Part shown: positions 29,438 to 63,994 of the stretch, one piece after another
Layout of the letters: the number at the start of each line of letters is the position of its first letter
Numbering within the stretch: the stretch's first letter is position 1
Virus record (IMG/VR): IMGVR_UViG_3300029915_001170
Location: 35,641-99,640 of that record
Direction: 5' to 3' (one strand)
Source: a virus
DNA length: 64,000 nucleotides
The notes under the pieces: generated by a model
What the model was told of the DNA's origin: nothing
The model's input: the letters and a program-made list of their open reading frames with translations, nothing else
The model's database searches: none
Made by a program: the position numbers and the translations under genes

Positions 29438-29640
29438 GCTACAACGATCTAAGCCAGTCTACACTTGGCCCCGACGAGCGTAGAGAAGAAGCCCTCCGCA
29501 TAATCACAATGCTCGACGACTACCAAGACGAGCTTCGTTCGCACGAGTATGATATGATAGCACGTGTTAGAGACGGCGCGCCGGTTAGCGTGAAGATGCT
29601 GTTTTGGTTGCGTGATATAAAGGATAGGATACTTGCCTAA
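29434..29640 (+). CDS. Small helical protein, unknown
   Basis: 68 residues from the ATG overlapping the previous stop. Acidic helical sequence (RREEALRIITMLDDYQDEL). Its stop shares a base with the next start, so it is coupled to the exonuclease gene. Confidence 0.6.
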   Translation: MSYNDLSQSTLGPDERREEALRIITMLDDYQDELRSHEYDMIARVRDGAPVSVKMLFWLRDIKDRILA

Positions 29641-30746
29641 TGCCTTACATCAAACCACGCGGTAATCGCAATGCACGTATCTGGTGTATCCTAGCAAAGC
29701 CTTATAGCTCTGACTACGATCCAAAAACCGGCAAGGATACTCTCATGTCAGGAGGACTCGGGCATGTTTTTGACAAGATGCTTCGTGAAGCTGGTATTGA
29801 TCCTTACAGTGTGTATTTCACTTCTCGTGCTCCTAACACTGATGATCTGCACGCTTATACAAATTTGGAGTCTGAGCTTTCAGCTTCTAAGCCTCCGTTG
29901 ATTATTGTGATTGGCGATGTTGCTGGTTGGTTTTTGCCAGAACTTCGTACACCGAAGACCGTTGAGACAAATCCTGGCCAACTACAGAAGTATGCCGGTA
30001 GCTTGCTGCAATGCGGTGTTCTCCAATACCCGCACTACATGATGCCACTTTACGGTCCCGACAGATGTGTCGGCGATTGGAAAGAGCGAAACGTCACGGT
30101 GTACGTGGACCTGCAAAAGCTTCAGGACGAGCTGGTCTATTGGCAAAAGCATGGTACGCTGCGGCCGCTTCCAGAAAGGACAATGCGTTATGGAAATCTT
30201 GAGCTTAACGAAATACTGTCATGTTTTGAGCGATTCAGGAAAGCGCCACTCTTATCAATTGATATTGAAACAGTATACCCTCGCAAAGGAAGCGCCTTTC
30301 TTCCGCATCCTGGATACCCGATTACCGTTGGCATTGCTGACAGCCATGACTTCGGGATATCCTTCAACTTATTCCGTGACAGCCCAAGTGAGAATAGGAC
30401 TCTTTGGAGAGCGTTGGATTTATTGCTTAAAGGAAAGCCCATACTGGGGCAGAACTTCTTCAATTTTGACGCGCTTTTTTTTGAGGCTCTTGGATTCCAA
30501 ATCTCGCTGGATCGTGTACAAGACACACTTTTAAGACACCATATTCTGTGGCCAGAGCTTTCGCATAAGTTACAGTTTTTGACTCGGCAATATACGCGGG
30601 AGCCTTATTACAAGGACGAAGGCCATGGATGGAGTGTAAAGCATATGGACAAACTCCGGCGATACAATTGTTTGGATGTTTGCGTAACATATGAGGTTTG
30701 GGAGCAACAAGAACTTGAATTCCAACAACGCCCACAGTTGAAGTAG
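29640..30746 (+). CDS. UDG-like domain fused to 3'-5' proofreading exonuclease
   Basis: 368 residues. Residues 1-165 resemble the uracil-DNA-glycosylase-like fold found at the N-terminus of some phage polymerases (KPRGNRNARIWCILAKPYS, LIIVIGDVAGWFL). Residues about 200-360 are a DnaQ-type exonuclease: Exo I DIET (D208, E210), Exo II NFFNFD (D277), Exo III YNCLD (Y342, D346). The matching polymerase domain is encoded separately at 31082, so the enzyme looks split into two chains. Glycosylase catalytic residues cannot be confirmed. Confidence 0.78.
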   Translation: MPYIKPRGNRNARIWCILAKPYSSDYDPKTGKDTLMSGGLGHVFDKMLREAGIDPYSVYFTSRAPNTDDLHAYTNLESELSASKPPLIIVIGDVAGWFLPELRTPKTVETNPGQLQKYAGSLLQCGVLQYPHYMMPLYGPDRCVGDWKERNVTVYVDLQKLQDELVYWQKHGTLRPLPERTMRYGNLELNEILSCFERFRKAPLLSIDIETVYPRKGSAFLPHPGYPITVGIADSHDFGISFNLFRDSPSENRTLWRALDLLLKGKPILGQNFFNFDALFFEALGFQISLDRVQDTLLRHHILWPELSHKLQFLTRQYTREPYYKDEGHGWSVKHMDKLRRYNCLDVCVTYEVWEQQELEFQQRPQLK

Positions 30747-30754
30747 GAGAACGT

Positions 30755-30916
30755 ATGAACAACCAAGTAGAGGTCTCTCTTGTCTCAATTCGAGAATCCG
30801 TAGGAAAGATCGCACAGTTTCCAATAACACACATGCTAACAGAAGTCAAGGAAGCACTCCGCAACATTATTGCGGAGTGCTCAAAGATCGAAGCGGAGTT
30901 AAAGGAGAAGCAATGA
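30755..30916 (+). CDS. 53-residue protein between split polymerase parts
   Basis: ATG after AGGAGAACGT. Helical, charged (VKEALRNIIAECSKIEAELK). Its mRNA holds an 11-bp hairpin (30856-30882). No family recognised. Confidence 0.55.
   Translation: MNNQVEVSLVSIRESVGKIAQFPITHMLTEVKEALRNIIAECSKIEAELKEKQ
30856..30882 (+). repeat. Perfect 11-bp hairpin inside a coding region
   Basis: GCACTCCGCAA pairs with TTGCGGAGTGC around CATTA, within the gene at 30755. No T-run follows. It could modulate readthrough toward the polymerase gene. Confidence 0.5.
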
Positions 30917-31092
30917 GCGAGCCAATCCATGCTCGCGCTGAATGCGAGCTAATCCCAGAAGGCCCATCATGCACAGAGACAGCCGCAGCGTACTATGTGT
31001 ATATAAGAAACGGCGACTTGATTTTTTCTGTTCGCGTGAGAAAACCTGATCTTCATTATAGTACACCAAAGGTGGAGGAACGTGACAGATAA
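30913..31092 (+). CDS. 59-residue protein, unknown
   Basis: Starts at the ATG overlapping the previous TGA and overlaps the polymerase start by 11 bases. Two Cys early (RAECELIPEGPSCTETA) and a beta-rich second half. Unknown. Confidence 0.58.
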   Translation: MSEPIHARAECELIPEGPSCTETAAAYYVYIRNGDLIFSVRVRKPDLHYSTPKVEERDR

Positions 31093-32590
31093 GGTAACCT
31101 CATCTTATGAGCACGCTCTTCAAGCAGCTTATTACCATGTCGGTAATCGTGGCATCTGCGTCAATGTCCAACGGATCGCCGAAGCTAAAGCCATTGTCAA
31201 AGCAAAGGTTGCACAGCAACTAGCAATCGCCAGCAATCAATGGGGTACAAAGGTTTTTGTCGGCGCGGCGAATGCACCGGACGAAGCTATAAAAGGCTTG
31301 AATGCCAGCGGTGCAATCAACATCAATGCTACTCAAGGAAAGTTCGCACTCCTAACCGGCCTCAAAAACCTCGGCTACGAAGTAGTAAAAATCACAAAGA
31401 AAAACTCGGAGGGAGATTATGAACAAGGATACAGCACAGGAGAGCTTGCGCTTCAGAAGATGCTCTCTAAAAATCAATTTAACTATCCGGGAGGCGATCC
31501 TGCTATTAGAGCAATTCTCAAAATTAGAGAACTCGGAAAGTTGTACTCTTCTTACCTTAGCGCTAGACTCTTGGAAAGATCCGGAGAAGCGTACTTTCTC
31601 TCTAACTACAACGTTGCCGGAACTCTCACTGGTAGACGTTCATCCAGACGCCATACTTTCGGCTTTGGAAATAACGCTCAGAACTTCCCTAAACACAGCG
31701 ACGTAGCAGCAATGTACAGGCGATGCCTTGTCGCACGTCCAGGAAACATCTTTTTAATGGTCGATCAAGTCTCCGCCGAAGACTGGCCAGTATCGGCGCT
31801 CAGCGAGAATTATCAAGCCTTGAAAGAGCTACGCGATGATACAGATGTATATGGCCGCCACACGAGACTCGCCAGTGTTATTTTTGGAATTCCGCTCGCT
31901 GCGAAAACTCCGGGGGAGTGGAAAGATTCAATGGAGAGGTATCTTGGTAAAAAAACTCGTCACGCCAGCAACTACGATATGAAGGCCGGGCGTATGAGCG
32001 ACGCCCTAGCACAAGAAGGCTTTAGCTTTAGCGAGGTCGCTTGTCAAGCATTACTCAAAAAGGTAGCAGAGCATGATCCGTCAGTAGACCTTGTCTTCCA
32101 CAAGTACGTCAAGGACCAGATCTCCAAAACCCACATGCTTGTAACGCCCTTTGGGCGAGAAAGGCAATTCCTCGATGCCAGACCAAACGACTCAAACGCG
32201 ACGGTCTTCAAGGAAGCATACGCTTACATTCCACAATCAGTCGTCGGTGATAATACCGGTTTTGCTCTCCTCAAACTCGAAAGTAACTATGGAATTCAAG
32301 AACGATTTATCGTCCAGGAAGGCCATGATAGCATTGTCCAAGATATTCGAGCAGACGCTGAAACAGTCTATAAATATCTTCTCCGAACCAACGCCGCCTT
32401 TGACAGGACTATTAAGTTTCACAATGGAATCGAAGTCAACATCCCAATCGAAGCGGAACTCGGTTACGACTTCCAAACCACAGTCAAGATCAAAGAAATC
32501 TCCAGAGCAGGAGTAGCACGAGCGATGGAAAAACTTCGAGATATTCTAGCCGCGGCGGAGCCAAAGCAGGTACTTATTCCAGTAGTGTAA
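31082..32590 (+). CDS. Family A DNA polymerase, catalytic domain
   Basis: 502 residues, GTG start after GGAGGAAC. It begins close to the polymerase thumb region and lacks an exonuclease domain, which is supplied by the protein at 29640. Motif A is VDQVSAEDW (D228, E233 in place of the usual DYSQIE), motif B RHASNYDMKAG (R293, K301) and motif C GHDSIV (H415-D416, with Ser where Glu is usual). It should copy phage DNA. The changed motif A and C residues are unusual but the two catalytic Asp remain. Confidence 0.82.
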   Translation: MTDKVTSSYEHALQAAYYHVGNRGICVNVQRIAEAKAIVKAKVAQQLAIASNQWGTKVFVGAANAPDEAIKGLNASGAININATQGKFALLTGLKNLGYEVVKITKKNSEGDYEQGYSTGELALQKMLSKNQFNYPGGDPAIRAILKIRELGKLYSSYLSARLLERSGEAYFLSNYNVAGTLTGRRSSRRHTFGFGNNAQNFPKHSDVAAMYRRCLVARPGNIFLMVDQVSAEDWPVSALSENYQALKELRDDTDVYGRHTRLASVIFGIPLAAKTPGEWKDSMERYLGKKTRHASNYDMKAGRMSDALAQEGFSFSEVACQALLKKVAEHDPSVDLVFHKYVKDQISKTHMLVTPFGRERQFLDARPNDSNATVFKEAYAYIPQSVVGDNTGFALLKLESNYGIQERFIVQEGHDSIVQDIRADAETVYKYLLRTNAAFDRTIKFHNGIEVNIPIEAELGYDFQTTVKIKEISRAGVARAMEKLRDILAAAEPKQVLIPVV

Positions 32591-49391: not shown

Positions 49392-49467
49392 TGGCGCTCC
49401 CGAACGAATTTGAATCGTTATTTCTAGCTTAGGAGGCAAGTGCCCTATCCAGTTGGACGACGGGAGC
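49392..49467 (-). tRNA. tRNA-Arg (CCT)
   Basis: Acceptor GCTCCCG/CGGGAGC, loop CTCCTAA (anticodon CCT), T arm AACGA/TCGTT, G73 and CCA encoded. Its 5' three quarters are copied exactly at 51637-51697. Confidence 0.82.
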
Positions 49468-51620: not shown

Positions 51621-51696
51621 TGGTAATCCCGAGCAAATTTGAATCGTTATTTCTAGCTTAGGAGGCAAGTGCCCTATCCAGTTGGACGACGGGAGC
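51621..51696 (-). pseudogene. Chimeric pseudo-tRNA-Arg (CCT)
   Basis: Bases 51637-51697 equal tRNA-Arg(CCT) at 49392, while 51613-51644 equal the 3' end of tRNA-Arg(ACG) at 53464. The acceptor arms therefore no longer match well (GCTCCCG against CGGGATT) and the T stem has a mismatch. A recombination product, probably inactive. Confidence 0.75.
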
Positions 51697-53463: not shown

Positions 53464-53539
53464 TGGTAATCCCGAGCAAATTTGAATTGCTATCTCAAGC
53501 TTCGTAGACTAGTGTCCTATCCATTTGGACGACGGGATC
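53464..53539 (-). tRNA. tRNA-Arg (ACG)
   Basis: Acceptor GATCCCG/CGGGATT, loop CTACGAA (ACG), T arm AGCAA/TTGCT, A73 and CCA encoded. Anticodon stem has one mismatch. Its 3' end is copied in the chimera at 51621. Confidence 0.75.
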
Positions 53540-56659: not shown

Positions 56660-56860
56660 CTAATACTTTCCGAACCCAATATTAAATAGATCGTCGATGG
56701 ATTTCAAATGAGTATGTTTCAAAAAGTATTTATTCTTACATTCATCAGAACAAAACGAATAAAATCCAGGAACTGGGCCATAACATTTGTGACACATAGT
56801 TGTGGGCTTTTCGGTTCCATTAATAGGAGCAACTTTCCCGTTTAGACAATCTGCCATCAA
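56660..56860 (-). CDS. Zinc-finger miniprotein
   Basis: 66 residues. TTMCHKCYGPVPGFYSFCSD then ECKNKYFL gives a CxxC...CxxxC pattern like MYM/TRASH-type fingers. Its ATG overlaps the cREC gene stop. Confidence 0.65.
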   Translation of the reverse strand: MMADCLNGKVAPINGTEKPTTMCHKCYGPVPGFYSFCSDECKNKYFLKHTHLKSIDDLFNIGFGKY

Positions 56861-57228
56861 AAAGCCCTCCCATAATGATGTCGTATTACCTGTTCCATTC
56901 TAGCCTTACCAACGGGATTCATACTATGCACTCGAACACCCTTGACCGGCCAAATATTTTTTTCTTCCATATAACAAATAATGTCATACCCGGACTTTAC
57001 ATGTGGACAACGATTAAAAAATGTTGTTTCAGCCGTTTTCATATCACCGATATGATAATTTGAATTTGTGCATTCTAGGCAAGCGCCGATATCGTGATCG
57101 AGACTTGCAAATATGACTTCGCCCGTTTCTAACGCCGCGATTGCTTCCTCATAGCTCTTGGCCCAATCCCATCCGATGCATCCGAATTTTGCTGGATCGC
57201 GTACATCATCTAACCAAAGATATATCAT
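56857..57228 (-). CDS. Cyclic-phosphate-processing receiver-like (cREC) protein
   Basis: 123 residues. IYLWLDDVRDP near the start, VIFASLDHDIGACL, a GYDIICYMEE segment and VRVHSMNPVGKARME match the cREC family, receiver-like proteins predicted to process cyclic phosphates on RNA. Acidic residues of both loops are present. Could act in tRNA end repair, which would suit the tRNA-rich setting. Confidence 0.72.
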   Translation of the reverse strand: MIYLWLDDVRDPAKFGCIGWDWAKSYEEAIAALETGEVIFASLDHDIGACLECTNSNYHIGDMKTAETTFFNRCPHVKSGYDIICYMEEKNIWPVKGVRVHSMNPVGKARMEQVIRHHYGRAF

Positions 57229-59865: not shown

Positions 59866-59894
59866 ATTATAGCAACTATATTATTGCCTGTCAA
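59866..59894 (-). promoter_or_regulatory. Perfect sigma-70 consensus promoter
   Basis: On the minus strand TTGACA, exactly 17 bases, TATAAT. It overlaps the 3' end of the nucleotidase gene and lies about 107 bases before the start at 59759. Confidence 0.8.
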
Positions 59895-60486
59895 GAGATA
59901 AGTTATTAACGATATCGGAAAATTCTTGGAAGGAGTAAACTCGAGTATACGGAACCTTAATCTTTTCATCGGCATCTTGATTCCATTCTCTATCGCGTAG
60001 AAATAAAACTGTATCCGTACTTTTTTCTGAAACCTCGATCAAATTTTCTGGCCTATCATCAATTATTGCATCCAATCGTAATGCTCTTGCAATTTCGCCT
60101 TTTTGTTTTTCAACCAATACCGTGGGATATTTGATTCCGCAACACGATAACCATTTTGCGGTCTGAATTTCTATTGGGTCTCCCTCGGTTATTACCCGTG
60201 TAGTAATGAAATATAATCGATATTTCTTTGAAAATGCAGTCATATCAAAATTTAAGATATCCGAAAACGGCATATTATGTAAATAAAAATTTTTGGTGTT
60301 TGAAATCACATCCCATGCCTGCTTATGAATTTCCGGAGTTAAATTCCAATTTGATTGAAACCAATCTTTAACTTCGGCGGGCAATACCTTTCCAGTTAAT
60401 TGTTCGCAAATCGTATGATAAGGTGTGGTGAAATCCGATAATACTCCATCAATATCAATGCCTAATCGTAATCTAGTATCTTTCAT
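59881..60486 (-). CDS. HAD-type 5'(3')-deoxyribonucleotidase
   Basis: 201 residues. LGIDIDGVLSDF (D11, D13) is the HAD nucleophile loop; LYFITTRVITEGD, a conserved Lys region and AIIDDRPENLIEV complete the fold. The length and HICEQ..LTGK cap fit phage NT5C-like nucleotidases, which dephosphorylate dNMPs. It would balance nucleotide pools with GMP reductase. Confidence 0.8.
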   Translation of the reverse strand: MKDTRLRLGIDIDGVLSDFTTPYHTICEQLTGKVLPAEVKDWFQSNWNLTPEIHKQAWDVISNTKNFYLHNMPFSDILNFDMTAFSKKYRLYFITTRVITEGDPIEIQTAKWLSCCGIKYPTVLVEKQKGEIARALRLDAIIDDRPENLIEVSEKSTDTVLFLRDREWNQDADEKIKVPYTRVYSFQEFSDIVNNLSLDRQ

Positions 60487-63284: not shown

Positions 63285-63830
63285 TTAAATGATGGTGTGA
63301 TTTAATTTTTGATTAGGAATATGGTATTCACTCCTAAGAAGTCGTATAATACTTTCTGAATCATCGAATTTAATCCATTCACCATTTTCGATATTTACAT
63401 TAAATTTATTTAATAATGCATTTTCAACTTTTCGTCTATCTAAAACAAATTCATAATGCTTAACTTTATATTGTTTAAATGGATCGCAAGTTTGATATGC
63501 GAGAAGTCTCTTATTTAAATCCATCGTCATACCAATTTTTAAATGATCTGGCCATATTGGATTCCAAATTAAATAAACAATGCCTTCTTTACAAGTTTTA
63601 ACATCGCCACCGCGCGAAATTAACAGTTTTAAAAATTCTAGCCCTCCCATTTTTCTTGCATAATTTTTACTGAATTTATTATTATGCTTGGGCCGACAGT
63701 CTCCATAAATCTCGATATATGCCTGCATAATATTTTCATTAAGAGAAAATAAACCTTTTTCAGGAATAATACGGTTATTTATCATTATATCAAATGTTTG
63801 CTTAATTCTTGATAATTTATCTTGATTCAT
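63285..63830 (-). CDS. GIY-YIG/T5orf172-type nuclease domain protein
   Basis: 181 residues. The C-terminal half (EGIVYLIWNPIWPDHLKIGM, then DLNKRLLAYQTCDPFKQY, KVENALLNKFNVNIENGEWI) matches the T5orf172/Meiotically-type branch of the GIY-YIG superfamily: YLI...KIGM core, Arg, and catalytic Glu in the VENALLNKF helix. The N-terminal half is basic and may bind DNA. Free-standing homing-type nucleases of this class often sit near tRNA genes. Confidence 0.75.
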   Translation of the reverse strand: MNQDKLSRIKQTFDIMINNRIIPEKGLFSLNENIMQAYIEIYGDCRPKHNNKFSKNYARKMGGLEFLKLLISRGGDVKTCKEGIVYLIWNPIWPDHLKIGMTMDLNKRLLAYQTCDPFKQYKVKHYEFVLDRRKVENALLNKFNVNIENGEWIKFDDSESIIRLLRSEYHIPNQKLNHTII

Positions 63831-63857: not shown

Positions 63858-63994
63858 TGGTGGGTCCAGCGGGACTTGAACCCGCCACCAACCGGTTACC
63901 CGTGTCCATTCGGTAAACGCCCTCGCCAGATTCGAACTGGCATCATTCCTTTAAGGACCAAAGCCGGTTGCTCTACCAGATGAGCTATAGACCC
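63858..63994 (-). tRNA. tRNA-Lys (TTT) interrupted by 61 bases
   Basis: The 5' part (63960-63994) and 3' part (63858-63898) join to GGGTCTA/TGGACCC acceptor, GCTC/GAGC D arm, ACCGG/CCGGT anticodon arm, loop CTTTTAA and a perfect T arm with CCA. Bases 63899-63959 split the loop between CTTT and TAA. The insert itself holds a T-arm-like hairpin (GCCAG TTCGAAT CTGGC). Confidence 0.72.

Follow-up and report, generated by a model that had tools for sequence, protein, structure and literature searches.

The anticodon loop of the tRNA-Lys(UUU) gene at the end of this phage contig contains a 61-nt insert that is itself an armless mini-tRNA, made of an acceptor stem and a T-arm and beginning exactly at the border of the 5′ exon; the insert belongs to a widespread, recurrent class whose borders lie at the ends of mature tRNAs. 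Within the window, that is, the whole stretch of 64,000 nt that was analysed, the gene occupies 63858-63994 on the minus strand, and ARAGORN, with introns allowed, recovers it with every arm intact, the CCA encoded and the insert between nt 35 and 36; removal of the 61 nt leaves a 76-nt tRNA-Lys(ttt) with an intact cloverleaf. Rfam RF00005 matches 63861-63994 (minus strand) over its full length with 52.7 bits despite the insert (gathering threshold 29), which bears out the claim of the first-pass annotation that a tRNA-Lys is restored when 63899-63959 is taken out. The gene is missed by ARAGORN in default mode without introns and is the only insert-bearing one among the 21 tRNAs found by ARAGORN in the window; a consensus pattern for the split tRNA-Lys layout has one match in the window and none in 100 shuffles. 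The splice junction is ambiguous by a few bases, and a shifted removal of 61 nt would yield the loops CTTGTAA, CTGGTAA or CTTTGAA; identity as tRNA-Lys is favoured over these alternatives because of the acceptor stem GGGTC...GACCCA. The parts of the gene, all on the minus strand, are as follows.

63960-63994, minus strand: 5′ exon of tRNA-Lys(UUU), 35 nt, containing the acceptor strand, D-arm, 5′ anticodon stem and C32-U33-U34-U35 (ARAGORN with introns, Rfam)
63899-63959, minus strand: insert, 61 nt, between nt 35 and 36 (ARAGORN with introns)
63953-63959, minus strand: nested acceptor 5′ strand GGTCCTT, at the exon border (pairing with GAGGGCG; RNAfold)
63942-63952, minus strand: linker AAAGGAATGAT, replacing the D- and anticodon arms (sequence)
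63925-63941, minus strand: nested T-arm GCCAG TTCGAAT CTGGC (5/5 pairs; shuffling)
63918-63924, minus strand: nested acceptor 3′ strand GAGGGCG (pairing with the first 7 nt of the insert)
63899-63917, minus strand: T73 position and 18-nt trailer TTACCGAATGGACACGGG (atypical compared with the class)
63858-63898, minus strand: 3′ exon of tRNA-Lys, 41 nt, containing UAA, 3′ anticodon stem, variable loop, T-arm, acceptor strand and CCA (Rfam, ARAGORN with introns)

The insert is identified as a mini-tRNA because its order of acceptor, linker, T-arm and acceptor is that of a tRNA minus the D- and anticodon arms. The nested T-arm has all five pairs and the canonical TTCGAAT loop, for which dinucleotide shuffles give a chance probability of 2e-4, and GGTCCTT and GAGGGCG form six of seven pairs (0.004 by shuffling, given the T-arm). 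A T-arm-like hairpin followed by an acceptor-like strand had already been noticed in the insert, and both exceed chance; overlooked at that stage was the 5′ partner of GAGGGCG, which is formed by the first 7 nt of the insert. RNAfold includes the nested acceptor helix in its globally most stable fold of the precursor; the first pair of the helix is a mismatch, a competing outer stem GUCC/GGAC is possible, and the insert has neither CCA nor D-arm nor anticodon arm. The discovery of the acceptor partner at the 5′ border led us to abandon a reading in which the insert was the 3′ half of a class II tRNA.

IMG/VR was searched by layout instead of sequence; at least 120 stretches matched a general D-arm...T-arm pattern, and once most tandem artefacts had been filtered out automatically, at least 109 insert-bearing tRNAs remained, which fall into several classes. 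The nested class was found with two patterns for a second, nested T-arm. Tandem-tRNA artefacts occur among the ARAGORN intron calls, and with five of them removed by hand (L396, L397, L371, L352, L368) 48 host tRNAs with a nested T-arm were parsed. In 35 of the 48, against an expected 1.6, the nested acceptor begins right at the exon border. These border-starting inserts end after N73 (11/35), after N73 and three further bases, mostly CCA (22/35), or after two bases (2/35), so that 33 of 35 have an N73 or N73+3 end; this precision was not built into the search, because trailers of up to about 25 nt were allowed. The contents of the slot vary: a complete tRNA-Gly, from G1 to CCA, lies between U35 and U36 of a tRNA-Asn (L199), a 43-nt armless tRNA with CCA lies inside a tRNA-Gln (L205), and L348 and L391 have a common host 5′ exon and different nested tRNAs. 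In 257 Gb of bacterial and archaeal contigs, the first of the two nested patterns had only tandem or chance matches as parsed here, none of them convincing. A conserved 5′ leader resembling TACAGNRTGGTTCACTGNAACRAACCA, possibly a folded element, precedes a nested tRNA abutting the 3′ exon in L332, L360, L366, L370, L382, L383 and L387; L172, L141 and the Lak-A1 insert L311:22004 are similar. The tRNA-Lys studied here shares with the class a host tRNA that is intact apart from the split in its anticodon loop, and a nested T-arm and acceptor (at least 6/7 pairs) at the 5′ exon border; it departs from the class at its 3′ end, which lies 18 bases beyond N73 instead of at N73 or N73+CCA. It is thus an atypical member, divergent or possibly decaying.

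Close relatives of the locus were sought in several ways. BLAST with the whole locus gave no match, and BLAST with the tRNA-Lys and with the insert gave ordinary tRNA and T-arm matches only; the GIY-YIG gene downstream and the gene at 59881-60486 led to no relatives, and the terminase led to many, on short contigs without the interrupted tRNA-Lys locus. The proposal to look for the same insert in related genomes therefore met with divided success: no near relative carrying the locus turned up, and L381 is a tRNA-Lys(UUU) interrupted at the same site by a nested tRNA of the same length, 61 nt. A first Lys-specific pattern had no match; it missed L381 because it required the D-arm GGTAGAGC, where L381 has GGTTAGAGT. 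The contig (99,640 nt, IMG/VR) stops 6 nt past the 5′ end of the tRNA-Lys, and a second assembly of the locus was not found in the searches made, as would be expected of an assembly chimera at a contig end. Such an origin is nevertheless very remote, as the tRNA halves match exactly in the acceptor and anticodon stems, the layout of the insert agrees with that in dozens of independent contigs, and Lak-A1, which is described as manually curated, has a nested insert as well.

The interrupted hosts appear to work, because they show compensatory changes without broken acceptor pairs: the acceptor stems of ten pairs of hosts with homologous inserts contain 18 compensatory changes and no broken pair, counted on pairs that are not all independent and on hosts preselected for at least 6/7 acceptor pairs. 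Between L261 and L264 the exons differ at 2 of 71 positions (one compensatory pair) and the inserts at 14 of 65. If the hosts are apparently working, the insert should therefore be removed; judged on sequence evidence, the class behaves as introns, because its borders match mature-tRNA ends and its hosts keep their pairing by compensatory change. These data also bear on the idea that the insert is tolerated debris, a tRNA inserted into a tRNA-Lys that has become a pseudogene or decaying relic and yields no mature tRNA-Lys from this copy. The 18-nt trailer and the missing CCA, D-arm and anticodon arm speak for it, as does the occurrence of tRNA recombination in the array: a chimeric tRNA-Arg (51624-51696, minus strand) has a 5′ part like 49392-49467, a 3′ end like 53464-53539 and a mismatched acceptor stem. 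We consider debris rather unlikely in view of exons without decay and the compensatory evolution of interrupted hosts across the class. The first-pass annotation offered two options, an unusual intron or an inactivating insertion of tRNA debris, and the data combine them in part: the insert is a nested tRNA-like element, and its class is recurrent and intron-like. Given the atypical 3′ trailer, inactivation of this particular copy is possible.

The reading that we prefer, at roughly even confidence, is that the insert is a nested armless tRNA-like intron, excised by the enzymes that process tRNA ends, after which the exons are sealed by a phage RNA ligase. RNase P leaves a 5′-phosphate on its product and a 3′-OH upstream, and RNase Z leaves a 5′-phosphate downstream. 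Host RNase P would cut at the nested 5′ end and leave a 3′-OH on the 5′ exon; tRNA 3′ processing, by RNase Z after N73 or by processing to CCA, would leave a 5′-phosphate on the 3′ exon; and a phage RNA ligase of the Rnl1 or DRB0094 type would join the exons to a functional tRNA-Lys. Ends of this kind, as left by RNase P and RNase Z, would require no healing before an ATP-dependent RNA ligase joined the exons. The 18-nt trailer of the studied copy would demand one extra trimming step or mark the start of decay, and the 5′ leaders of the Lak-type and L261/L264 inserts would need an extra step beyond RNase P.

Both RNA ligases are encoded by the phage, an Rnl1-type enzyme with the motif KMDG (it passes the Pfam cut-off but not the stricter one of NCBIfam) and a DRB0094-type enzyme (247 bits against a TIGR02306 cut-off of 151), as is a Pnkp that has both kinase and phosphatase motifs. 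An RNA ligase was detected in 17 of 24 class contigs and 15 of 44 tRNA-bearing controls, which were only partly screened for inserts (pooled p 0.004); the first sample gave 10/13 against 6/21, and the second, alone not significant, 7/11 against 9/23. No RNA ligase was detected in seven class contigs, some of them fragments. The DRB0094-type family is present in 9 of 23 class contigs, the studied phage included, and in 1 of 28 controls, as counted with a model built from eight of the nine. Divergent DRB0094-like RNA ligases of 430-480 aa, 36-63% identical (G081, G083, G086, G091, G038, G039, G040), recur in contigs with nested inserts. Inside the tRNA array of the window, 56857-57228 (minus strand) encodes a cREC_REC (cyclic-phosphate processing receiver) protein, possibly an RNA-repair gene.

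A true intron might also be removed by another route, either through an anticodon nuclease-like cut with healing by Pnkp and sealing by Rnl1, on the model of T4 tRNA-Lys repair, or by a dedicated endonuclease. Pnkp and Rnl1 are both at hand, T4 is known to repair tRNA-Lys in this way after cleavage by PrrC (PMC10264068), and the insertion sites cluster in the anticodon loop; the coincidence of insert ends with tRNA ends is left unexplained by this route, which we hold to be quite improbable. Removal by tRNA-end enzymes and a ligase is favoured, in our judgement, by the intact exons, nested structure beyond chance, the class borders, L381, the compensatory changes, the ligases and Pnkp of this phage and the ligase association; it is disfavoured by the 18-nt trailer, the first-pair mismatch, the leaders of the Lak-type and L261/L264 inserts, the non-significant second ligase sample, the seven class contigs without a detected ligase and the GUCC/GGAC stem. 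We would extend it to a general form of phage tRNA splicing with a shade less than even confidence: the intron would itself be a tRNA or mini-tRNA, excised by RNase P at its 5′ border and by RNase Z or processing to CCA at its 3′ border, with the exons resealed by a phage ligase, notably of the DRB0094 type, and the anticodon loop would be a slot for exchangeable nested tRNAs, as in L348 and L391, which carry different ones behind a common host 5′ exon. RNase P would then act as a ribozyme that removes introns, and the phage RNA ligases would have another function in addition to the repair of tRNAs.

Other inserts were met in the layout search of IMG/VR. A second class, 35-60 nt long, has a conserved ACAGCAA-like motif after a hairpin and includes L105, L114, L126, L144, L150, L153, L165 (Aeromonas phage Aeh1), L166, L167 and L168, among others; it has no Rfam match beyond tRNA, and in Aeh1 it lies within a 122-nt gene annotated as tRNA-Val. 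A third (L100, L103, L120, L129, L132, L137, L149, L156, L164, L170) sits in the anticodon stem near nt 28-29 and has a conserved AGAGTTACTTC-like end. Neither class has a T-arm, and by eye the tRNA-Lys insert matched neither. Because default ARAGORN misses the tRNA-Lys and Aeh1 has its 122-nt ‘tRNA-Val’, phage tRNA counts and anticodon assignments made with default tools may be wrong where inserts occur. Directly downstream of the interrupted tRNA-Lys lies a GIY-YIG-type (T5orf172/MUG113) gene (63285-63830, minus strand), which may be compared with the homing endonuclease SegB of the T4 tRNA region. At 29640-32590 (plus strand) the DNA polymerase is divided between two genes, 29640-30746 and 31082-32590, which match successive portions of a single PHROG family.

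Among known systems, group I introns also occur in anticodon loops, after a 5′ exon ending in U and with an intron ending in G as here; however, 61 nt leave no room for a catalytic core and the insert has no Rfam group I match, in agreement with the initial view that it is too short for a group I or II intron. The protein-spliced introns of Archaea and Eukarya are likewise short and in the anticodon loop, and enzymatic cutting and ligation is what we propose as well, but their canonical site is 37/38 rather than 35/36, and a bulge-helix-bulge (3-nt bulges, 4-bp helix) was not seen by inspection of the precursor, where flanks of 5 and 8 nt surround GUCC/GGAC. In the T4 repair of tRNA-Lys (PrrC, Pnkp, Rnl1) a ligase acts on the same anticodon loop and the enzyme kit is the one found in this phage, but its task is to mend host tRNA that has been damaged, and no intron is removed. 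Closest are the introns of Lak megaphage tRNAs, likewise split in the anticodon loop, one of them possibly encoding a tRNA (Devoto et al. 2019; PMC6784885); Lak-A1 has many RNA ligase matches. The Lak-type layout, a 5′ leader and a nested helix abutting the 3′ exon, is seen without trailer in the tRNA-Ser insert of Lak-A1 (L311), whereas in the tRNA-Lys insert the nested acceptor comes first and a 3′ trailer follows the nested helix. Lak tRNA introns were called enigmatic in 2019 (PMC6784885), and no removal mechanism for this type was found in the literature searched, whose reach excluded most subscription journals and bioRxiv; the mature-tRNA footprint of the inserts suggests a concrete route for their removal.
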